Part shown: positions 14,025 to 20,519 of the stretch, piece after piece
How positions within the stretch are numbered: the first letter of the stretch is position 1
Layout: each line of letters begins with the position of its first letter
Origin: a virus
Length of the DNA: 30,824 nt
IMG/VR virus record: IMGVR_UViG_3300037345_000177
Span: 1 to 30,824 of that record
Direction: 5' to 3' (one strand)
The notes under the pieces: model-generated
What the model saw: only the letters and a program-made list of their open reading frames with translations
The model's database searches: none
Told to the model about the DNA's origin: nothing
Made by a program: the position numbers and the translations under genes

Positions 14025-15476
14025 ATGGCCACCACCACTATCCGCGTAAACGATACGCCGATCAGGGTCAGCATCGGGCCGGATGCCGAAGAAGCATCGC
14101 GTCAACGCGCGCTGGCGCAGCAGGCCCTTGCGGACACGGTTGCCGCCGGAACGGCGAAAGTCGCGCAGGCAGAAGCCGCGCGTGATGCGTCAATCGCTGC
14201 TTCGCTGGCGGCTGTACCTCGTGTCGGGCTTGAGGGCGATAGCATCATGGCGCAAAATCATGACCGGGTGGGAGTAGAGTTTATTGCCACAAGTGGGCTC
14301 GGTGAACTGATTTGGGCCCGGTCGCTGTTTCCGCATTTCGAGATGGACCAATGGGAAGACCCGGCAGATGCGCTCCACAGCAGCAAGGGTTGCAACGTCG
14401 CGGTGGGTGGGCACAGCACGTCACAAGTGATCGCACAGATGGAGGAGGTAGCGAAGATCGCTCCTGATATTCTCTGCCTCGCTATCGGTATCAACGACAT
14501 CAATGGGGGCAACACGGCTGCCTTCCCAATGGGCAATATCAAGACTATCTGCGAATATTACACCGGTCTCGGCATTCGCGTACTGCTTGCAAATCTGCGA
14601 CCGGTCGGGGCGGGGTATGCCCTCACTGATTGGTCAGATGGCAGCACACGACTTGCCGAATTGCTCGCCCTAAATGCTCTGATTGAGGACTATGCCGCTA
14701 TAACGCCAAACGTCGTTCTGGTTGATCTGATGGCCGCCTACAGCAATGGAGCAACGCCGCCCCGTCCGCGCGCCGGGGAAACTTACGACGAACTGCATCC
14801 GAACCGGACAGGTGCGTTTTGGGGCGGTGTTCTCGGGTGGCTACCGGCGTTGCGTAAAGTCATCAAGCCGCTTGTAATTGCGCGCCCTACCGGGGCAAAT
14901 ATTGTTACTGACGGCAATTTCGCTGGAACAGGAGGTATCGCAGCGACAGGCTTCACCGGAGACGTTGCTACAAACTGGCTGCTCGAGTGTTACGCTAACG
15001 GGGGTTTGGGCGCGGGGTTCGGTGCGGTCGCCTCCAAGAATGCAGCCGACCAACAAGTTGTCACCATCACGCCGGGAGGAAAGAGCTGGGAACTAGTACA
15101 GGTCAACCGTGCGTTCGGCGGCGCGTTGATGCAGGAGGGAAAGTGGTATAAGGGTTTGTTTCGCATTCGATTGAGTGCGTCCGCCTATTGGCGGGCGGTG
15201 AGCTTTCAATATAGCATTCATAGCCAGGCAATGTCGGGGGTGGACTTCACCACAGCCTATATTGGGGATACCGGCGAAGACCTCGAATTGTTGATCGAAA
15301 CACCTCATTACCAAGCCCCTTCGGGCGGTGAAATTGGCGTAACTCTGGCTTACATTTTTACCGACGGCGCATCTCCTGACCCGATGCAGTTCACGATCCT
15401 TGAAGCATACGCCGCAGAGGTAGCAGACCCCAACCCACTCCACGGTTTCACCATCCCGGACTTCGCGCGGCCATGA
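14025..15476 (+). CDS. Tail fibre/spike with SGNH (GDSL-type) esterase domain
   Basis: This 483-residue protein has three parts. Residues 1-65 are an Ala-rich helical adaptor, probably trimerising and tail-binding. Residues 66-280 form an SGNH hydrolase: block I G-D-S with Ser73, block II Gly in V-A-V-G-G-H-S, block III G-I-N-D with Asn157, and block V D-x-x-H with Asp255 and His258. The remainder, from G-A-N-I-V-T-D-G-N-F, is a beta-sandwich typical of carbohydrate-binding modules. It probably removes acyl groups from host surface polysaccharide during adsorption. The C-terminal D-P-N-P-L-H-G-F is echoed in the mini-ORF just downstream. Base composition looks less GC-rich than its neighbours by eye, suggesting exchange. 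Confidence 0.82.
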   Translation: MATTTIRVNDTPIRVSIGPDAEEASRQRALAQQALADTVAAGTAKVAQAEAARDASIAASLAAVPRVGLEGDSIMAQNHDRVGVEFIATSGLGELIWARSLFPHFEMDQWEDPADALHSSKGCNVAVGGHSTSQVIAQMEEVAKIAPDILCLAIGINDINGGNTAAFPMGNIKTICEYYTGLGIRVLLANLRPVGAGYALTDWSDGSTRLAELLALNALIEDYAAITPNVVLVDLMAAYSNGATPPRPRAGETYDELHPNRTGAFWGGVLGWLPALRKVIKPLVIARPTGANIVTDGNFAGTGGIAATGFTGDVATNWLLECYANGGLGAGFGAVASKNAADQQVVTITPGGKSWELVQVNRAFGGALMQEGKWYKGLFRIRLSASAYWRAVSFQYSIHSQAMSGVDFTTAYIGDTGEDLELLIETPHYQAPSGGEIGVTLAYIFTDGASPDPMQFTILEAYAAEVADPNPLHGFTIPDFARP

Positions 15477-15523
15477 ACGTAAATCCGACCGACCCGCGCC
15501 CGCTGCATGGGTTTGCGGCGTGA
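15473..15523 (+). CDS. 16-codon mini-ORF resembling a fibre C-terminus
   Basis: The ATG at 15473 overlaps the fibre stop (ATGA), and the TGA at 15521 overlaps the GTG of the next gene (GTGA). The peptide contains D-P-R-P-L-H-G-F and ends A-A. The same D-P-x-P-L-H-G-F occurs near the end of the fibre protein just upstream. It may be the remnant 3' end of a former fibre gene, kept as a coupling peptide. Translation is not proven. Confidence 0.5.
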   Translation: MNVNPTDPRPLHGFAA

Positions 15524-16308
15524 CCGAACCCGTTTCTCCGACACTACGGGAAAAAACACAGAGCGAAACCGTTACCGGCATCCTGGGCCAATTCCAGCGC
15601 ATGGCGAGCTGGGCCGGCGAGCGCCCCGGCCGTGCGGCGCTGGGTCTCTTCATCACCATCGTCGGGCTCGTATTCCTGGTGCCAATAGTCCTGTTCGCAC
15701 TGATGCCCGAGCGAAGCTTCGATCTGATCGACGGATTACTCAGCAATAGCGTTTCGGAGCGACTTGAGCGGGAGCTCGGCGAAGAGGTGGATCGGCTCCT
15801 CGAACGCTCGATCTCCAACTTGTGCCGGGAGACTGGCGCGTCACGGTGCGTGGTGCGTGCCTATGTCTACGAGCGCAACAGCGTGGGCCAGATTATCGCG
15901 ATCACCGATGTGTTCGAGATCATGGATCCGCAGACCGAGCGCACCGGCATTCGCGGAGCTACGCTCCCGATCGACGATGTTGATAGCTCGATTGCGTACA
16001 TGCTGACAGATCCGAGCCGGCCGCGTTGCATCGCTCGCGACCGCGAAGAATATGAGAGCGAAGGCCTGCGCGCGTTCATGGAGCGCGCGGGGCTGAAGGC
16101 GTCGGTTGCATGCCCGATCACCGGAATGGATGGAACGCCGCTGGGACTGCTCTCCGTGTCCGTTCGCACACCATTGGAGCGCAATCCGGAGCTGGTGCAG
16201 CGCACCCGCGATCGCTCGCTCGTGTTCAGCGGATACTGGTTGCAATCGCCGAAAGTGAAGGCCGCGCTCGAGCGGGCCCTTCTAATGACTGAAGAAAATA
16301 TATCATGA
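15520..16308 (+). CDS. Membrane-anchored GAF-like domain protein
   Basis: This 262-residue protein starts at GTG 15520. Residues about 38-62 form one strong membrane span, preceded by a basic stretch (G-E-R-P-G-R). A charged helical linker rich in Glu/Arg follows. Residues about 95-240 look like a GAF-type sensory fold: A-S-R-C-V-V-R-A-Y-V-Y, later G-L-K-A-S-V-A-C-P-I, then G-T-P-L-G-L-L-S-V-S. Positive-inside bias suggests a short cytoplasmic N-terminus and a periplasmic C-terminal domain, but the opposite is possible. It lies at the head of the lysis cassette and overlaps the endolysin start by ATGA. Holin, lysis regulator and superinfection factor are all possible; none is shown. Confidence 0.68.
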   Translation: MTEPVSPTLREKTQSETVTGILGQFQRMASWAGERPGRAALGLFITIVGLVFLVPIVLFALMPERSFDLIDGLLSNSVSERLERELGEEVDRLLERSISNLCRETGASRCVVRAYVYERNSVGQIIAITDVFEIMDPQTERTGIRGATLPIDDVDSSIAYMLTDPSRPRCIARDREEYESEGLRAFMERAGLKASVACPITGMDGTPLGLLSVSVRTPLERNPELVQRTRDRSLVFSGYWLQSPKVKAALERALLMTEENIS

Positions 16309-16808
16309 TGGCAATCGACTGGCCGCTCGACGAAAATTTCATCAGGCGCGGGCTGGAGAACCATACCTACGGTCCCGTTCGAAACGGCGGCAAGCGAAAT
16401 CATCAGGGCTGGGACTTCTATGCCGAGCCGGGCACGCCGTGCTTCGCGATCGCCGATGGCACCGTGGTGAAGATCCGCAATGTAGGCGATTATGGCCTGC
16501 AGGTGATCATCCGGTTTGATTTCAAGCTCGATGGCAAACCGAGCAAGCTGTTCGCGTTCTACGCGCATCTGTCGCGCGCCGATGTAAAGGAAGGTCAGAG
16601 CGTCAAGCTCGGCCAGCAGGTTGGGCTGACGGGCAACAGCGGCAATGCCAGTACGATGCGCGGCAAGGATCAGCATCTGCATTTCGAGATCCGCACCACT
16701 GCCATTACCGGGCGTGGTCTCGATGGGCGCATGTCGCCGCTGCGGGTGCTTGGGCATTGTCCGCTGCAGGCACCAGTCTTCCGCACGAAGCCTGAGGAGA
16801 CGCGATAA
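16305..16808 (+). CDS. M23-family zinc endopeptidase (endolysin)
   Basis: This 167-residue protein has the complete M23 (LytM) zinc site: H33-x-x-x-D37 in N-H-Q-G-W-D-F, and H124-x-H126 in Q-H-L-H-F-E-I-R. The auxiliary His88 lies in F-Y-A-H-L-S, and the conserved G-x-V-G-L-T-G-N-S-G turn is present. It should cut peptide cross-links of peptidoglycan. There is no signal peptide and no anchor segment, so release needs a membrane lesion made by another gene. It starts with ATGA coupling to the GAF-like gene and is followed immediately by the lipid-desaturase-like gene and the spanins, which places it in the lysis cassette. Confidence 0.88.
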   Translation: MMAIDWPLDENFIRRGLENHTYGPVRNGGKRNHQGWDFYAEPGTPCFAIADGTVVKIRNVGDYGLQVIIRFDFKLDGKPSKLFAFYAHLSRADVKEGQSVKLGQQVGLTGNSGNASTMRGKDQHLHFEIRTTAITGRGLDGRMSPLRVLGHCPLQAPVFRTKPEETR

Positions 16809-17341
16809 TGCAACTGTTCATTTTCCAGTTTCTGCTGGGATGGCTTGTTGCCGATCTGCTGTCGGGAATTCTGCACTGGGTGCAGGACCGCACGCTTGGC
16901 GACGGCGCCAACTGGATAGGGCGTCGGGTCGTGGCGCCGGCGCAACTTCATCATCGTGATCCAAGCTTTTTCTTGGAGAACAGCTTTGTTACGCCAAACA
17001 AAACTACGTGGCTGGTTATCGTACCAATAGCATCGCTCTGGCTCGCGGCGCTGGGACCGTCGATCATACTTCTCGGTGCGTTGAGTGGTGGACTGTTAGT
17101 CAATGAAGTGCATCGCCTAACACATCGTCCACCAGAAGCTGGGAGCTGGCTGCGCGTCTTGCAGCAGATCGGAATCATCCAATCGCCTGCCGGCCACGCT
17201 CGGCACCATAGAGCAACGTTCACCAATTATTGCACGCTGACAGACTGGCTCAATCCGGCCATCGAGAAGATCGAACTTTGGAATGGTCTCGAGCGAATCC
17301 TTTTACGCTTTGGGATCCCAATATCGCGAGGCATTCAATGA
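16808..17341 (+). CDS. Membrane protein of the plasmanylethanolamine desaturase / CarF / TMEM189 (Kua) family
   Basis: This 177-residue membrane protein carries the family's histidine layout: D-L-L-S-G-I-L-H-W with His23, H-H-R-D-P with His48-His49, N-E-V-H-R-L-T-H with His102 and His106, and H-A-R-H-H with His130, His133 and His134. The later Y-C-x-L-T-D-W-L-N-P and E-K-I-E-L-W-N-G-L-E motifs also follow the eukaryotic and myxobacterial members as I recall them. Hydrophobic segments lie at about 1-22, 67-82 and 84-99. Known members desaturate alkyl ether phospholipids to plasmalogens with a di-iron centre. One His usual in the HH-x-x-HH motif is Gly here. It is coupled by overlap to the endolysin before and the spanin after. 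Its substrate is unknown. Confidence 0.82.
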   Translation: MQLFIFQFLLGWLVADLLSGILHWVQDRTLGDGANWIGRRVVAPAQLHHRDPSFFLENSFVTPNKTTWLVIVPIASLWLAALGPSIILLGALSGGLLVNEVHRLTHRPPEAGSWLRVLQQIGIIQSPAGHARHHRATFTNYCTLTDWLNPAIEKIELWNGLERILLRFGIPISRGIQ

Positions 17342-17682
17342 ATTGGCCCGCCGCGATCGGTCCATTCCTCCGATCACTTACGCCGCTGGGCATCGTTCTG
17401 GCCGTTCTCGCAGCGCTGGCGCTGGCTGTGGGCGGTTGGAAGTCCTTCGATTGGTTCAACGACCGTGAAGCTGTCCAGGAGGACAGGGACGCCCACAACG
17501 CGGCAGTGAACGCTGATCTGCGCGTTGCTGAAGGCGCGGCGGGCGGAGCCAAGGCAGCGCGCGATATCGCGGATGCTGCCGAACAGGACGAACTGGAGGA
17601 TATGACCGATGAAGCCGATGATGCTGGCGATAGCCCTGCTGACGATATCTGGAACGGCGGGCTGTTCGACGCCCCGGGTTGA
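17338..17682 (+). CDS. Inner-membrane spanin (Rz-like)
   Basis: This 114-residue protein starts at ATG 17338, overlapping the previous stop as ATGA. Residues about 17-33 are a single membrane span. The rest is a charged, Ala-rich helix likely to form a coiled coil (D-R-E-A-V-Q-E-D-R-D-A-H onward), with an acidic end. The o-spanin gene begins inside it in another frame. This embedded pair is the hallmark of Rz/Rz1 spanins, which fuse inner and outer membranes in the last step of lysis. Confidence 0.8.
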   Translation: MNWPAAIGPFLRSLTPLGIVLAVLAALALAVGGWKSFDWFNDREAVQEDRDAHNAAVNADLRVAEGAAGGAKAARDIADAAEQDELEDMTDEADDAGDSPADDIWNGGLFDAPG

Positions 17683-17923
17683 ATATGCAGTTACCGATCC
17701 GGCTATCCTGAATGACTGCCCACGCACCGTCGAAAGCCCGGGCGATCTGACGCCGAATAAGCCCGTGCGAATGCCGGACGGTATTGCGGCCGTCGATCTC
17801 GCTACTACAAACAAGCGCGAAACCATGCTGACGCGCGGGATCCTCGCCTTCCGCAGCGCCTGGACGAAGTGCCGTAGTGTCGTTGTCTATGTTGAGGACA
17901 GGGATCGCTCGCTGGTCGAGTGA
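17609..17923 (+). CDS. Outer-membrane spanin lipoprotein (Rz1-like)
   Basis: This 104-residue protein has a signal peptide with a lipobox ending S-G-T-A-G-C, so Cys19 would be lipidated. The mature part is short and has two more Cys (N-D-C-P-R-T and W-T-K-C-R), typical of long Rz1-like o-spanins. The gene overlaps the i-spanin gene by 74 bases in a different frame. Together they should span the periplasm from inner to outer membrane. Confidence 0.82.
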   Translation: MKPMMLAIALLTISGTAGCSTPRVEYAVTDPAILNDCPRTVESPGDLTPNKPVRMPDGIAAVDLATTNKRETMLTRGILAFRSAWTKCRSVVVYVEDRDRSLVE

Positions 17924-18028: not shown

Positions 18029-18337
18029 TTATCCGCCCTGTTGAAAGTCTGCGATCTTTCGGCAGGCCCACTCGGGAATCACCTTTTCAGGATAGCCACC
18101 AAGGCGGCGGACACCAGCGGCGTGGCGCGCGCCAATGACATAGCATCCGCACTCCCCGCTGAGCGGCGGATAGAATACCGACCAAAAGTCCTCGCCAGGC
18201 GGGACAGCAAGACCATCGAGATCGATGTGCCTGGCTTCGCACCCAATCGCATCGTGCAGAAATACCCATAGCGAGTAGCCTTCTTCTTCAAGTTGGCGCC
18301 GACGCGAGGCTGAATATTCTTCGTAATTCTCGAACAT
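18029..18337 (-). CDS. Conserved small phage protein, unknown function
   Basis: This 102-residue protein on the minus strand lies between the spanins and the integrase. Residues 1-35 are charged helix, and the end carries C-G-C-Y-V-I-G-A-R-H-A-A-G-V-R-R-L-G-G. The C-x-C-Y-V-x-G-A-R pattern gives me a sense of a conserved family, but I cannot name it. Its start codon overlaps the most upstream possible integrase start, so the two are divergent with almost no space between them. It may be a lysogeny-expressed extra gene. Confidence 0.6.
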   Translation of the reverse strand: MFENYEEYSASRRRQLEEEGYSLWVFLHDAIGCEARHIDLDGLAVPPGEDFWSVFYPPLSGECGCYVIGARHAAGVRRLGGYPEKVIPEWACRKIADFQQGG

Positions 18338-18350
18338 GATTGGAAGTCAT

Positions 18351-19559
18351 ATGCTCACCAACGCCGCGGCGAAAGCCGCTGGCGCGAAGAATCGCTCCTA
18401 TAAGCTGTCCGATCAGGGCGGCATGCATCTGCTCGTTCGCCCGACCGGCACGAAGAGCTGGCAGCAGAAGTACCGCTGGCGAGGGCGGGAGAAGCTGCTG
18501 ACGCTCGGCCAGTTCCCGGATGTGTCAGTACCGCGCGCCCGAATCCTGCAGGCTGGAGCCAAGGAAATGCTCGATCGCGGCGTTGATCCTTCCAGCGCGG
18601 CCTCGAAAGCCGGTTCGCTCGATACGTTCGAGCAGCTGGCGCGGTCCTGGTACCAGCATTCGCGCGCCAGCTGGTCAGCGGCGCACGCTGCGGACGTGAT
18701 TGGCAGTCTCGAGCGCGATATTCTCCCCGACCTTGGCGAGCGCCCGGTGAGCGCGATTTCCGCTCCGGAGCTGCTCGCCCTGCTGCGCGCTGTCGAGAAA
18801 CGCGGGCGGCTTACCACGGCGCAGCGCATCCGACAGCGCCTGTCGGAGATCTTCGCCTTTGCTATTGCGCAGGGCCTCGTTGAGAACGATCCGGCGGCCA
18901 AATTGGGAGCAGCCATGAAGGACGCGCCACCGGCCCAGCCGCACCCCGCTTTGATCGGCATACATGAATGCCGCGCGCTTTTGCGCGCCTGCGACGACGT
19001 GCGCGCCCAGCCAGTTACATTGGCGGCCAGCCGATTCCTCGCGCTGACAGCCGTCCGGCTCGATGCGGTACGCGGCGCGCGCTGGAGCGAGATCGATCTG
19101 GGCGCGGCCACATGGACCGTGCCGGCATCGCGCATGAAGCTGGCGCGGGCGAAGAAGGGAAATGAGTTGTACAATCATATCGTACCACTGAGCGGCGCGG
19201 CGATGGATGTCCTCTCGTCACAGCTAAATAACAATCCTGTAATGTCGTCAGGTGATGGCCTGGTGTTTCCCGGACGCAGCGGCGACCAGCCGATCGGCGA
19301 GGGCGCCATTCGTGAGCTGTATATCCGCGCCGGCTATTCCGGGCGTCACGTGCCGCACGGTTGGCGTGCCAGCTTTTCGACGATCCTCAATGAAGAGCTG
19401 GGCGAGGGATCACGCACCACGATCGATATGGCACTGGCGCACAGCGCCAAGGGCAAGGTTGAGGCGGCATACAATCGCGCGCAGCTGCTCGGCAGTCGGC
19501 GTGAGCTGATGGATCGGTGGGGAGCGATGCTCTTGGGACAAGAAATTCCCCACACGTAG
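18351..19559 (+). CDS. Tyrosine integrase, DUF4102/P4 type (intact)
   Basis: This is a site-specific recombinase. I choose ATG 18351 because M-L-T-N-A-A-A-K-A-A-G-A-K matches the usual N-terminus of the family and GGAAG lies just upstream; ATG 18336 is also in frame. The 402-residue product has the N-terminal arm-binding domain (G-G-M-H-L-L-V-R-P-T-G-T-K-S-W), a SAM-like core-binding domain, and a catalytic domain with the first Arg in L-T-A-V-R-L-D (about residue 235), H-G-W-R (about 337), L-A-H-S and the Tyr nucleophile in A-A-Y-N-R. All catalytic residues are present. It resembles the broken integrase at 21562-22824, so the two are paralogues. Confidence 0.92.
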   Translation: MLTNAAAKAAGAKNRSYKLSDQGGMHLLVRPTGTKSWQQKYRWRGREKLLTLGQFPDVSVPRARILQAGAKEMLDRGVDPSSAASKAGSLDTFEQLARSWYQHSRASWSAAHAADVIGSLERDILPDLGERPVSAISAPELLALLRAVEKRGRLTTAQRIRQRLSEIFAFAIAQGLVENDPAAKLGAAMKDAPPAQPHPALIGIHECRALLRACDDVRAQPVTLAASRFLALTAVRLDAVRGARWSEIDLGAATWTVPASRMKLARAKKGNELYNHIVPLSGAAMDVLSSQLNNNPVMSSGDGLVFPGRSGDQPIGEGAIRELYIRAGYSGRHVPHGWRASFSTILNEELGEGSRTTIDMALAHSAKGKVEAAYNRAQLLGSRRELMDRWGAMLLGQEIPHT

Positions 19560-19676: not shown

Positions 19677-20519
19677 ATGACCAAAGCAAACGATACTAAT
19701 AACGTCCTTGAAACCATCCGGGCCGTTCGTCCGGCTGCTGCCTATCTGGGCGGGAAGCGAAATCTGGCGAAGCGCGTCTGCGCCATCATCGATGACACTG
19801 ACCACGACGCGTATGCAGAGCCCTTCGTCGGAATGGGCGGAATTTTCCTTCGTCGCTCCAGCCGGCCGAAGGTCGAGCAGATCAACGATATCAGTGGAGA
19901 TGTGGCGAACTTATTTCGCGTCCTGCAGGAGCACTATCCCTATTTTATCGACATGCTGCGTTGGCGCTTGGCGAGTCGGAATGAATTCAAACGGCTAAGT
20001 GCGATGTCCGCCGACCAGCTGACGGACCTGCAGCGCGCTGCGCGCTTCCTCTATTTGCAGAAACTCGCATTCGGCGGGAAAGTGACTGGGCAGAATTTCG
20101 GCGTCAATAATCAATCGCCGGCACGCTTCCGTGTCTCTCAGATTGAACCGATGCTCGCTGATATTCACGAGCGGCTGCAGGGAGTCGTGATCGAGCAGCT
20201 CCCCTTTGCGCAGTTCATAAAACGATATGATCGGCTGGGTGTGCTTTTCTATTCGGACCCACCGTATTTTGGCTACGAGAATTATTATGGCGAGGACGTA
20301 TTCATGCGGGAGGATTTTGAGCGGTTGGCCCAGCTCGCCCGTTCGGCGCGCGGCAAGATGATCATCTCCATCAACGATCGGCCGGAAGTTCGAGCGATTT
20401 TCTCCGATTTGCACCAACGCGAGCTCACGACGACTTACTCGGTGGGAGCACGCTCTGCAGGAGCAAAGACTGCCGGTGAGATCATCATCAGCAATTTCGA
20501 GATCGGTAATCTGCTTTAG
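19677..20519 (+). CDS. DNA adenine-N6 methyltransferase, D12 (Dam) class
   Basis: This 280-residue protein has the D12-class motifs in order: Y-L-G-G-K-R-N-L near residue 24 (SAM-binding strand and conserved Lys), E-P-F-V-G-M-G-G-I-F (motif I), I-N-D-I-S-G-D (acidic SAM-contacting motif) and D-P-P-Y-F-G-Y near residue 196 (catalytic DPPY). It should methylate adenine in a short site, probably protecting phage DNA or regulating its replication. No partner endonuclease is visible nearby, so it appears to be an orphan methyltransferase. It is the last plus-strand gene before the minus-strand block. Confidence 0.92.
   Translation: MTKANDTNNVLETIRAVRPAAAYLGGKRNLAKRVCAIIDDTDHDAYAEPFVGMGGIFLRRSSRPKVEQINDISGDVANLFRVLQEHYPYFIDMLRWRLASRNEFKRLSAMSADQLTDLQRAARFLYLQKLAFGGKVTGQNFGVNNQSPARFRVSQIEPMLADIHERLQGVVIEQLPFAQFIKRYDRLGVLFYSDPPYFGYENYYGEDVFMREDFERLAQLARSARGKMIISINDRPEVRAIFSDLHQRELTTTYSVGARSAGAKTAGEIIISNFEIGNLL

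Follow-up and report, generated by a model that had tools for sequence, protein, structure and literature searches.

Integral membrane proteins of the PF10520 (CarF/TMEM189/FAD4) superfamily are best known from mouse PEDS1 (TMEM189), Myxococcus CarF, and plant FAD4. The substrates of PEDS1 are ether lipids, and FAD4, a delta-3-trans-16:1 phosphatidylglycerol desaturase, acts on phosphatidylglycerol, aided by a peroxiredoxin (PMC12456178). In mouse PEDS1, eight histidines are essential (H96, H121, H122, H187, H191, H215, H218, and H219) (PMC7149458), as is one aspartate (D100), and 20 further fully conserved residues are common to FAD4 and PEDS1 (PMC8960569). A ninth histidine (H131 in PEDS1, H113 in CarF) is required, or nearly so, for normal function (PMC8960569, PMC9131029). 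In the literature, we found no enzyme assays of phage members of the family and none with a product for bacterial members other than CarF. For phage-encoded desaturases in general there is a known precedent in cyanophages (Roitman et al. 2018, as cited in PMC8224337), whose enzymes are membrane lipid desaturases viewed as metabolic genes.

We analyzed a 30,824-base IMG/VR virus contig that carries an integrase gene (the window, meaning the whole stretch of DNA). An ATG-initiated ORF on its plus strand (16808-17341) encodes a protein of 177 aa. The original prediction, made from the letters of the DNA, had assigned this protein to the CarF/TMEM189 family on the strength of eight histidines in the family layout and of DWLNP and EKI motifs, and had called for a PF10520 profile search. 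That search gave a match of 107.4 bits to Pfam PF10520, Lipid_desat (E 1.1e-30; gathering cut-off 26.4 bits), with profile positions 1-164 of 175 covered, so the histidine pattern is not due to chance. A weak second match was to the fatty-acid hydroxylase family PF04116.

The protein contains exactly eight histidines, which fill all eight essential positions and, with one aspartate, form its predicted ligand set (H23, D27, H48, H49, H102, H106, H130, H133, and H134). Residues 23, 27, and 48/49 correspond to 96, 100, and 121/122 of mouse PEDS1, and residues 102, 106, 130, 133, and 134 to 187, 191, 215, 218, and 219, with identical spacing in each block. Thus, D27, four residues after the first histidine, is the essential aspartate (mouse D100). 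The linker between the two histidine blocks is 12 residues shorter than in mouse PEDS1. Both predicted motifs were found, DWLNP at residues 146-150 and EKI at 153-155. Of the 27 homologs that we collected, which are otherwise ~22-50% identical to the window protein, 26 retain all eight histidines; invariant columns number 13 of 177 overall (hypergeometric P about 6e-11 for the eight histidines). One phage copy (L049:419-958) has lost a catalytic histidine (HGRLH) and is possibly inactive. The profile match and the residue mapping confirm that the window protein belongs to the PF10520 superfamily and that its predicted metal-ligand set is intact. It shares this set and its local spacing with PEDS1 and CarF, from which it differs in being phage encoded and in its length (177 aa versus 281 for CarF).

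An AF2 model built from 13 sequences was all-helical and confidently predicted (pLDDT 87.1, pTM 0.79). The best viral fold match was a Harvfovirus Lipid_desat (PF10520) protein (TM 0.67, E 8e-6), and the best PDB matches were three chains of Scs7p, a di-metal fatty-acid 2-hydroxylase (TM 0.44-0.52, probability up to 0.92). As the E values of the Scs7p matches were 0.27-0.73, the resemblance of the modeled fold to di-metal lipid hydroxylase and desaturase folds is at most suggestive. PDB sequence searches found no relative of the window protein and detected no solved structure for the family.

The original prediction had also raised the concern that the replacement of one family histidine by glycine might alter the chemistry. 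The residue in question, G129, lies just before H130 and aligns with mouse H214, where an alanine mutant stays active (PMC8960569); in other phage copies, this site is G, S, E, or H. Since G129 corresponds to a non-essential histidine and the eight essential ones are kept, the concern falls away, and we rejected the loss of an essential histidine as an explanation.

Two other positions bear on the substrate. Mouse H131 (CarF H113) is N58 in the window protein, which therefore lacks the ninth histidine, and mouse F118 is A45 (16940-16942). Both are absent from nearly all phage and bacterial relatives, in which the F118 site is mostly Asn; F118 is probably among the 20 residues conserved between FAD4 and PEDS1 (Ala in the window, Asn in its phage kin). 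Alanine at residue 45 sets the window protein apart from all other intact alphaproteobacterial-type phage copies examined, which have Asn. As the F118A mutant of PEDS1 keeps 5.9% activity (PMC8960569), the activity of the window enzyme could be low, and Ala at this residue may lower or change it.

These substitutions weigh against a true CarF/PEDS1 enzyme, that is, a plasmanylethanolamine desaturase that would make vinyl-ether plasmalogens from host alkyl-ether lipids. Such an enzyme would belong to the same Pfam family and carry the same essential residues, and the window protein does match the NCBIfam CarF equivalog model NF045946 weakly, at 65.7 bits; the cut-off of that model is 500 bits. 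To our knowledge, the ether-lipid substrate is mostly absent from aerobic bacteria. Genuine bacterial CarF has been reported from Cystobacterineae and Leptospira only, and plant and alphaproteobacterial (Bradyrhizobium) homologs, which also lack H131, failed to complement carF (PMC9131029). Together, N58, A45, and the low model score make a plasmalogen desaturase very unlikely. Thus, the superfamily assignment of the original prediction held, and plasmalogen chemistry as its leading function was not supported.

An acyl-chain desaturase of the FAD4 or alphaproteobacterial type fits the residues better. FAD4, like the window protein, has the eight histidines without H131, which is found only in PEDS1-type members; the plastid context of FAD4 is absent for the window protein. 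Hyphomonas PF10520 proteins, which are chromosomal, 195-234 aa long, and ~30-36% identical to the window protein, have its histidine/aspartate set and neither H131 nor F118. The absence of the PEDS1-specific residues makes an acyl substrate the preferred one. Three Hyphomonas genomes (G001, G003, and G004; loci L014-L016 and L018) each carry two chromosomal PF10520 paralogs, one of which lies in a conserved neighborhood beside a purD-like gene.

Chromosomal copies are rare. In Alphaproteobacteria, 4 of 289 sampled genomes had a PF10520 match above the cut-off; in Pseudomonadota it was 5 of 398, and in Bacteroidota 2 of 247. Every count takes in the genome used as the center of its search. Given this rarity, a phage may often bring chemistry that its host lacks. 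The plasmid collection contained no homolog of the window desaturase. Bacteroidota copies (L012 and L013) lie near primase/replication-like ORFs, with a small antisense ORF just upstream in both, and these loci are probably mobile elements. In a tree of 23 proteins, a modestly supported branch (77/91) set nine alphaproteobacterial-type phage copies apart from the rest; when four more copies were added, this grouping was broken, with weak support. A single clade of phage copies, and a single origin of the gene in phages, is thus neither shown nor excluded by these trees.

In the window, the desaturase gene is embedded in a lysis cassette on the plus strand. Upstream is the gene for a 167-aa M23 peptidase (16305-16808; PF01551 E 1.3e-22; PHROG endolysin 9.6e-17) that has both the HxxxD and HxH motifs and is the probable endolysin. 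The start of the desaturase overlaps its stop (TAATG, 16806-16810), and a GAGGAG ribosome-binding site (16794-16799) lies inside the M23 gene, 8 nt before the desaturase ATG. At the other end, the desaturase stop overlaps the ATG (ATGA, 17338-17341) of a 114-aa protein with one transmembrane segment (residues 14-32; 17338-17682), a putative i-spanin. In an overlapping frame follows a 104-aa putative o-spanin with a lipobox-like SGTAGC (17609-17923). As neither has a Pfam or PHROG family match, both spanin assignments rest on architecture, namely the usual i-spanin/o-spanin layout. The coupling by overlap on both sides that had been predicted is therefore present. Before the M23 gene lie an ORF for a 262-aa protein with one transmembrane segment (residues 43-61) and a GAF-like domain (15520-16308; PF01590 E 2e-4, score 22.3, just under the cut-off of 22.4) and, closing the tail module, an ORF for a GDSL lipase/esterase-like protein (14025-15476; PF13472 E 1.5e-12; PHROG lipase 8e-24), both on the plus strand.

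Beyond the cassette is a tyrosine integrase gene (18336-19559, plus strand; PF22022, PF13356, and PF00589; PHROG integrase 1.2e-48), adjoined by a gene for a D12-class adenine DNA methyltransferase (19677-20519; PF02086 6.6e-21). A 102-aa antisense ORF (18029-18337, minus strand) between the o-spanin and integrase genes has a weak match to a Mu F-like domain (E 0.017). The original prediction had called the element a prophage. The integrase does indicate a temperate phage, and since no host flank was found in the 30,824-base contig, temperate phage is the safer term. The DNA of the portal, protease, and capsid region is ~68% identical to Rhizobium phage 16-3. A search of Alphaproteobacteria with the window tail fiber gave weak matches only, and for Sphingobium 16S there was no long match of at least 90% among 176 sampled genomes. 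The host is probably an alphaproteobacterium.

A temperate phage could carry the gene for lysogenic conversion, such that the lipids of the lysogen would be altered, as the original prediction had suggested. We found in the window sequence no promoter or terminator of the desaturase's own beyond chance, which argues against this role, as do the frames that overlap late lysis genes on both sides and the presence of the gene in a phage described as lytic (Erythrobacter phage vB_EliS-L02, below). We rejected lysogenic conversion, which we regard as highly improbable. The gene has a GC content of 54.5%, compared to 60.4% for the genome, and a GC3 of 0.58, compared to 0.65-0.74 in its direct neighbors, suggesting that it was gained recently.

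We searched 50,697 phage records and scanned IMG/VR with alignments for further copies. The phage records yielded two matches, in vB_EliS-L02 and in a 595-kb uncultured phage (LR756511.1). The IMG/VR relatives all came from the alignment-based queries; viral scans with the single window desaturase, the huge-phage copy, the window M23 peptidase, or the GAF-like protein as query gave no relatives. The window desaturase has no match in PHROGs. Phage L02 has been isolated and is described as lytic (PMC9127768); neither "desaturase" nor "lipid" occurs in the paper describing it. Its protein, UIS25202.1, annotated as hypothetical, is 43% identical to the window protein and has all eight histidines; unlike the window gene, it is encoded between phoH and portal, away from lysis genes. 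L02 is CbK-like, and its kin (L004-L008) also carry the desaturase in the portal region. Directly 5' of the desaturase, L02-like phages have an ORF of ~180 aa with apparent transmembrane segments (L001:1798-2340, L006:3753-4289), which is unannotated in L02 and has no PHROG match.

The copy in the 595-kb phage (L002:4992-5450) is 27% identical to the window protein. It has the eight histidines together with the H131, D100, and F118 equivalents, the full PEDS1/CarF signature, and scored 90.5 bits against the CarF model, above the 65.7 of the window protein. We consider it a candidate plasmalogen-type desaturase of a huge phage.

In all, further copies on phage or viral contigs occur in ~7 contexts besides the window, nearly all in late genes, and in nearly all copies checked the desaturase start overlaps or abuts the upstream late gene. 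As we found no report in the literature of the CarF/TMEM189/FAD4 family in phages, these copies are apparently an unreported, recurrent set. Three of the ~8 contexts are linked to lysis genes: the window itself, a pair of phage loci (L030 and L047), and, putatively, a pair of Mu-like loci (L029 and L048). In L030 and L047, the desaturase, which is ~50% identical to that of the window, directly follows holin, amidase, i-spanin, and o-spanin genes (PHROG holin 6e-15 and amidase 4e-47 in L030; L047 has the identical gene order). In L029 and L048, which apparently come from isolate genomes, as judged by their IMG numbers, it follows holin-like and DUF2730/Rz-like ORFs and precedes gp26, gp27, and terminase; here, the lysis assignment is weak, as the spanin-like match has an E value of 0.006 and the holin-like ORF has no family. 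Elsewhere, the gene is in a head-tail connector region (L036), in a Mu-like virion-morphogenesis region (L037, L038, and L049), or on a 415-kb contig (L050), and no lysis genes neighbor it in L001-L008 or L036-L038. Among the copies collected, the exact order of endolysin, desaturase, and spanin was seen only in the window. The nearest integrase relative (L009) has T7-type holin, endolysin, and spanin-like genes and no desaturase, which marks the desaturase as an accessory gene.

These contexts bear on whether the multi-helix protein could itself form the lysis lesion in place of a holin. No ordinary holin was recognized among the window lysis genes with Pfam or PHROG, as the original prediction had noted in proposing this role, and a multi-pass protein does adjoin the endolysin. 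However, a holin and the desaturase occur in the same cassette in L030 and L047, so the desaturase is unlikely to replace the holin. Conserved catalytic histidines would not be expected of a holin, most copies are away from lysis genes, and the window desaturase matched no holin family in Pfam or PHROG. The slot before the endolysin, where L009 has its holin, is filled in the window by the GAF-like protein, a holin candidate by position only, which may be an unusual or signal-controlled holin or a lysis regulator. We therefore rejected the holin substitute, which is almost certainly wrong.

Linkage to lysis genes in three lineages could instead mean that the lipid product times lysis, tuning holin triggering or the membrane fusion driven by spanins. 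We consider this somewhat unlikely: in at least three other contexts the neighbors of the gene are portal, head, or tail genes, such that any late slot may do, and the Mu-like linkage is built on weak matches. The operon position favors a late role without singling out lysis. For the proposal that the phage alters host lipid before lysis, a late lipid change is the best reading; a role specific to lysis is tentative, as the linkage holds in only 3 of ~8 contexts.

Another reading is that the desaturase, like those of cyanophages, is a general auxiliary metabolic gene that adjusts membrane fluidity or the redox/ROS state of the infected cell for virion production, its position among lysis genes being incidental. 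In unrelated phages with sizes of 30-595 kb, the gene occupies a variety of late positions, which is consistent with this, as are the base composition that suggests recent gain and the absence of the gene from the related temperate L009. The cyanophage desaturases reportedly belong to a different family, of the classical acyl-lipid type, and are not encoded in a lysis operon. This reading is a real possibility, though short of probable, and it leaves the repeated junctions with lysis genes unexplained.

The explanation that we favor, with moderate confidence, is that the gene encodes an intact, minimal PF10520 di-iron desaturase, made late with the endolysin and spanins, that changes the lipid composition of the host membrane. 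The phage would make the 177-aa enzyme late in infection, translated in a chain with the endolysin and spanins. Most likely residing in the host inner membrane and using O2 and host electrons, the enzyme would introduce a double bond into a chain of existing host phospholipid, near its head-group end, by analogy with FAD4 and PEDS1. Possibly, the reaction is instead a hydroxylation. The substrate would more likely be an acyl chain, as for FAD4, than an ether-linked alkyl chain. The family, the full set of essential residues, the late operon position, and the recurrence in unrelated phages are observed; catalytic activity, the substrate, and a benefit from membrane conditioning, as opposed to some other use of the product, are inferred. 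Membrane lipid composition would change while virions are assembled and shortly before lysis, and the phage may benefit through conditioning of the membrane for virion production or for the action of holin and spanins.

The isolated pair of phage L02 and Erythrobacter litoralis DSM 8509 makes the phage branch of the family assayable. With the phage copies, an enzyme family relevant to human plasmalogens also gains small and divergent members. More broadly, phages may have repeatedly taken up a PF10520 desaturase as a late membrane-conditioning enzyme that chemically remodels the inner-membrane lipids of the host shortly before and during lysis, adding a lipid-chemical layer to holin, endolysin, and spanin; this generalization is speculative, and we regard it as unlikely. 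That unrelated phages repeatedly carry the gene, and that three lineages couple it to lysis genes, nonetheless suggests that phages alter host lipids late in infection.
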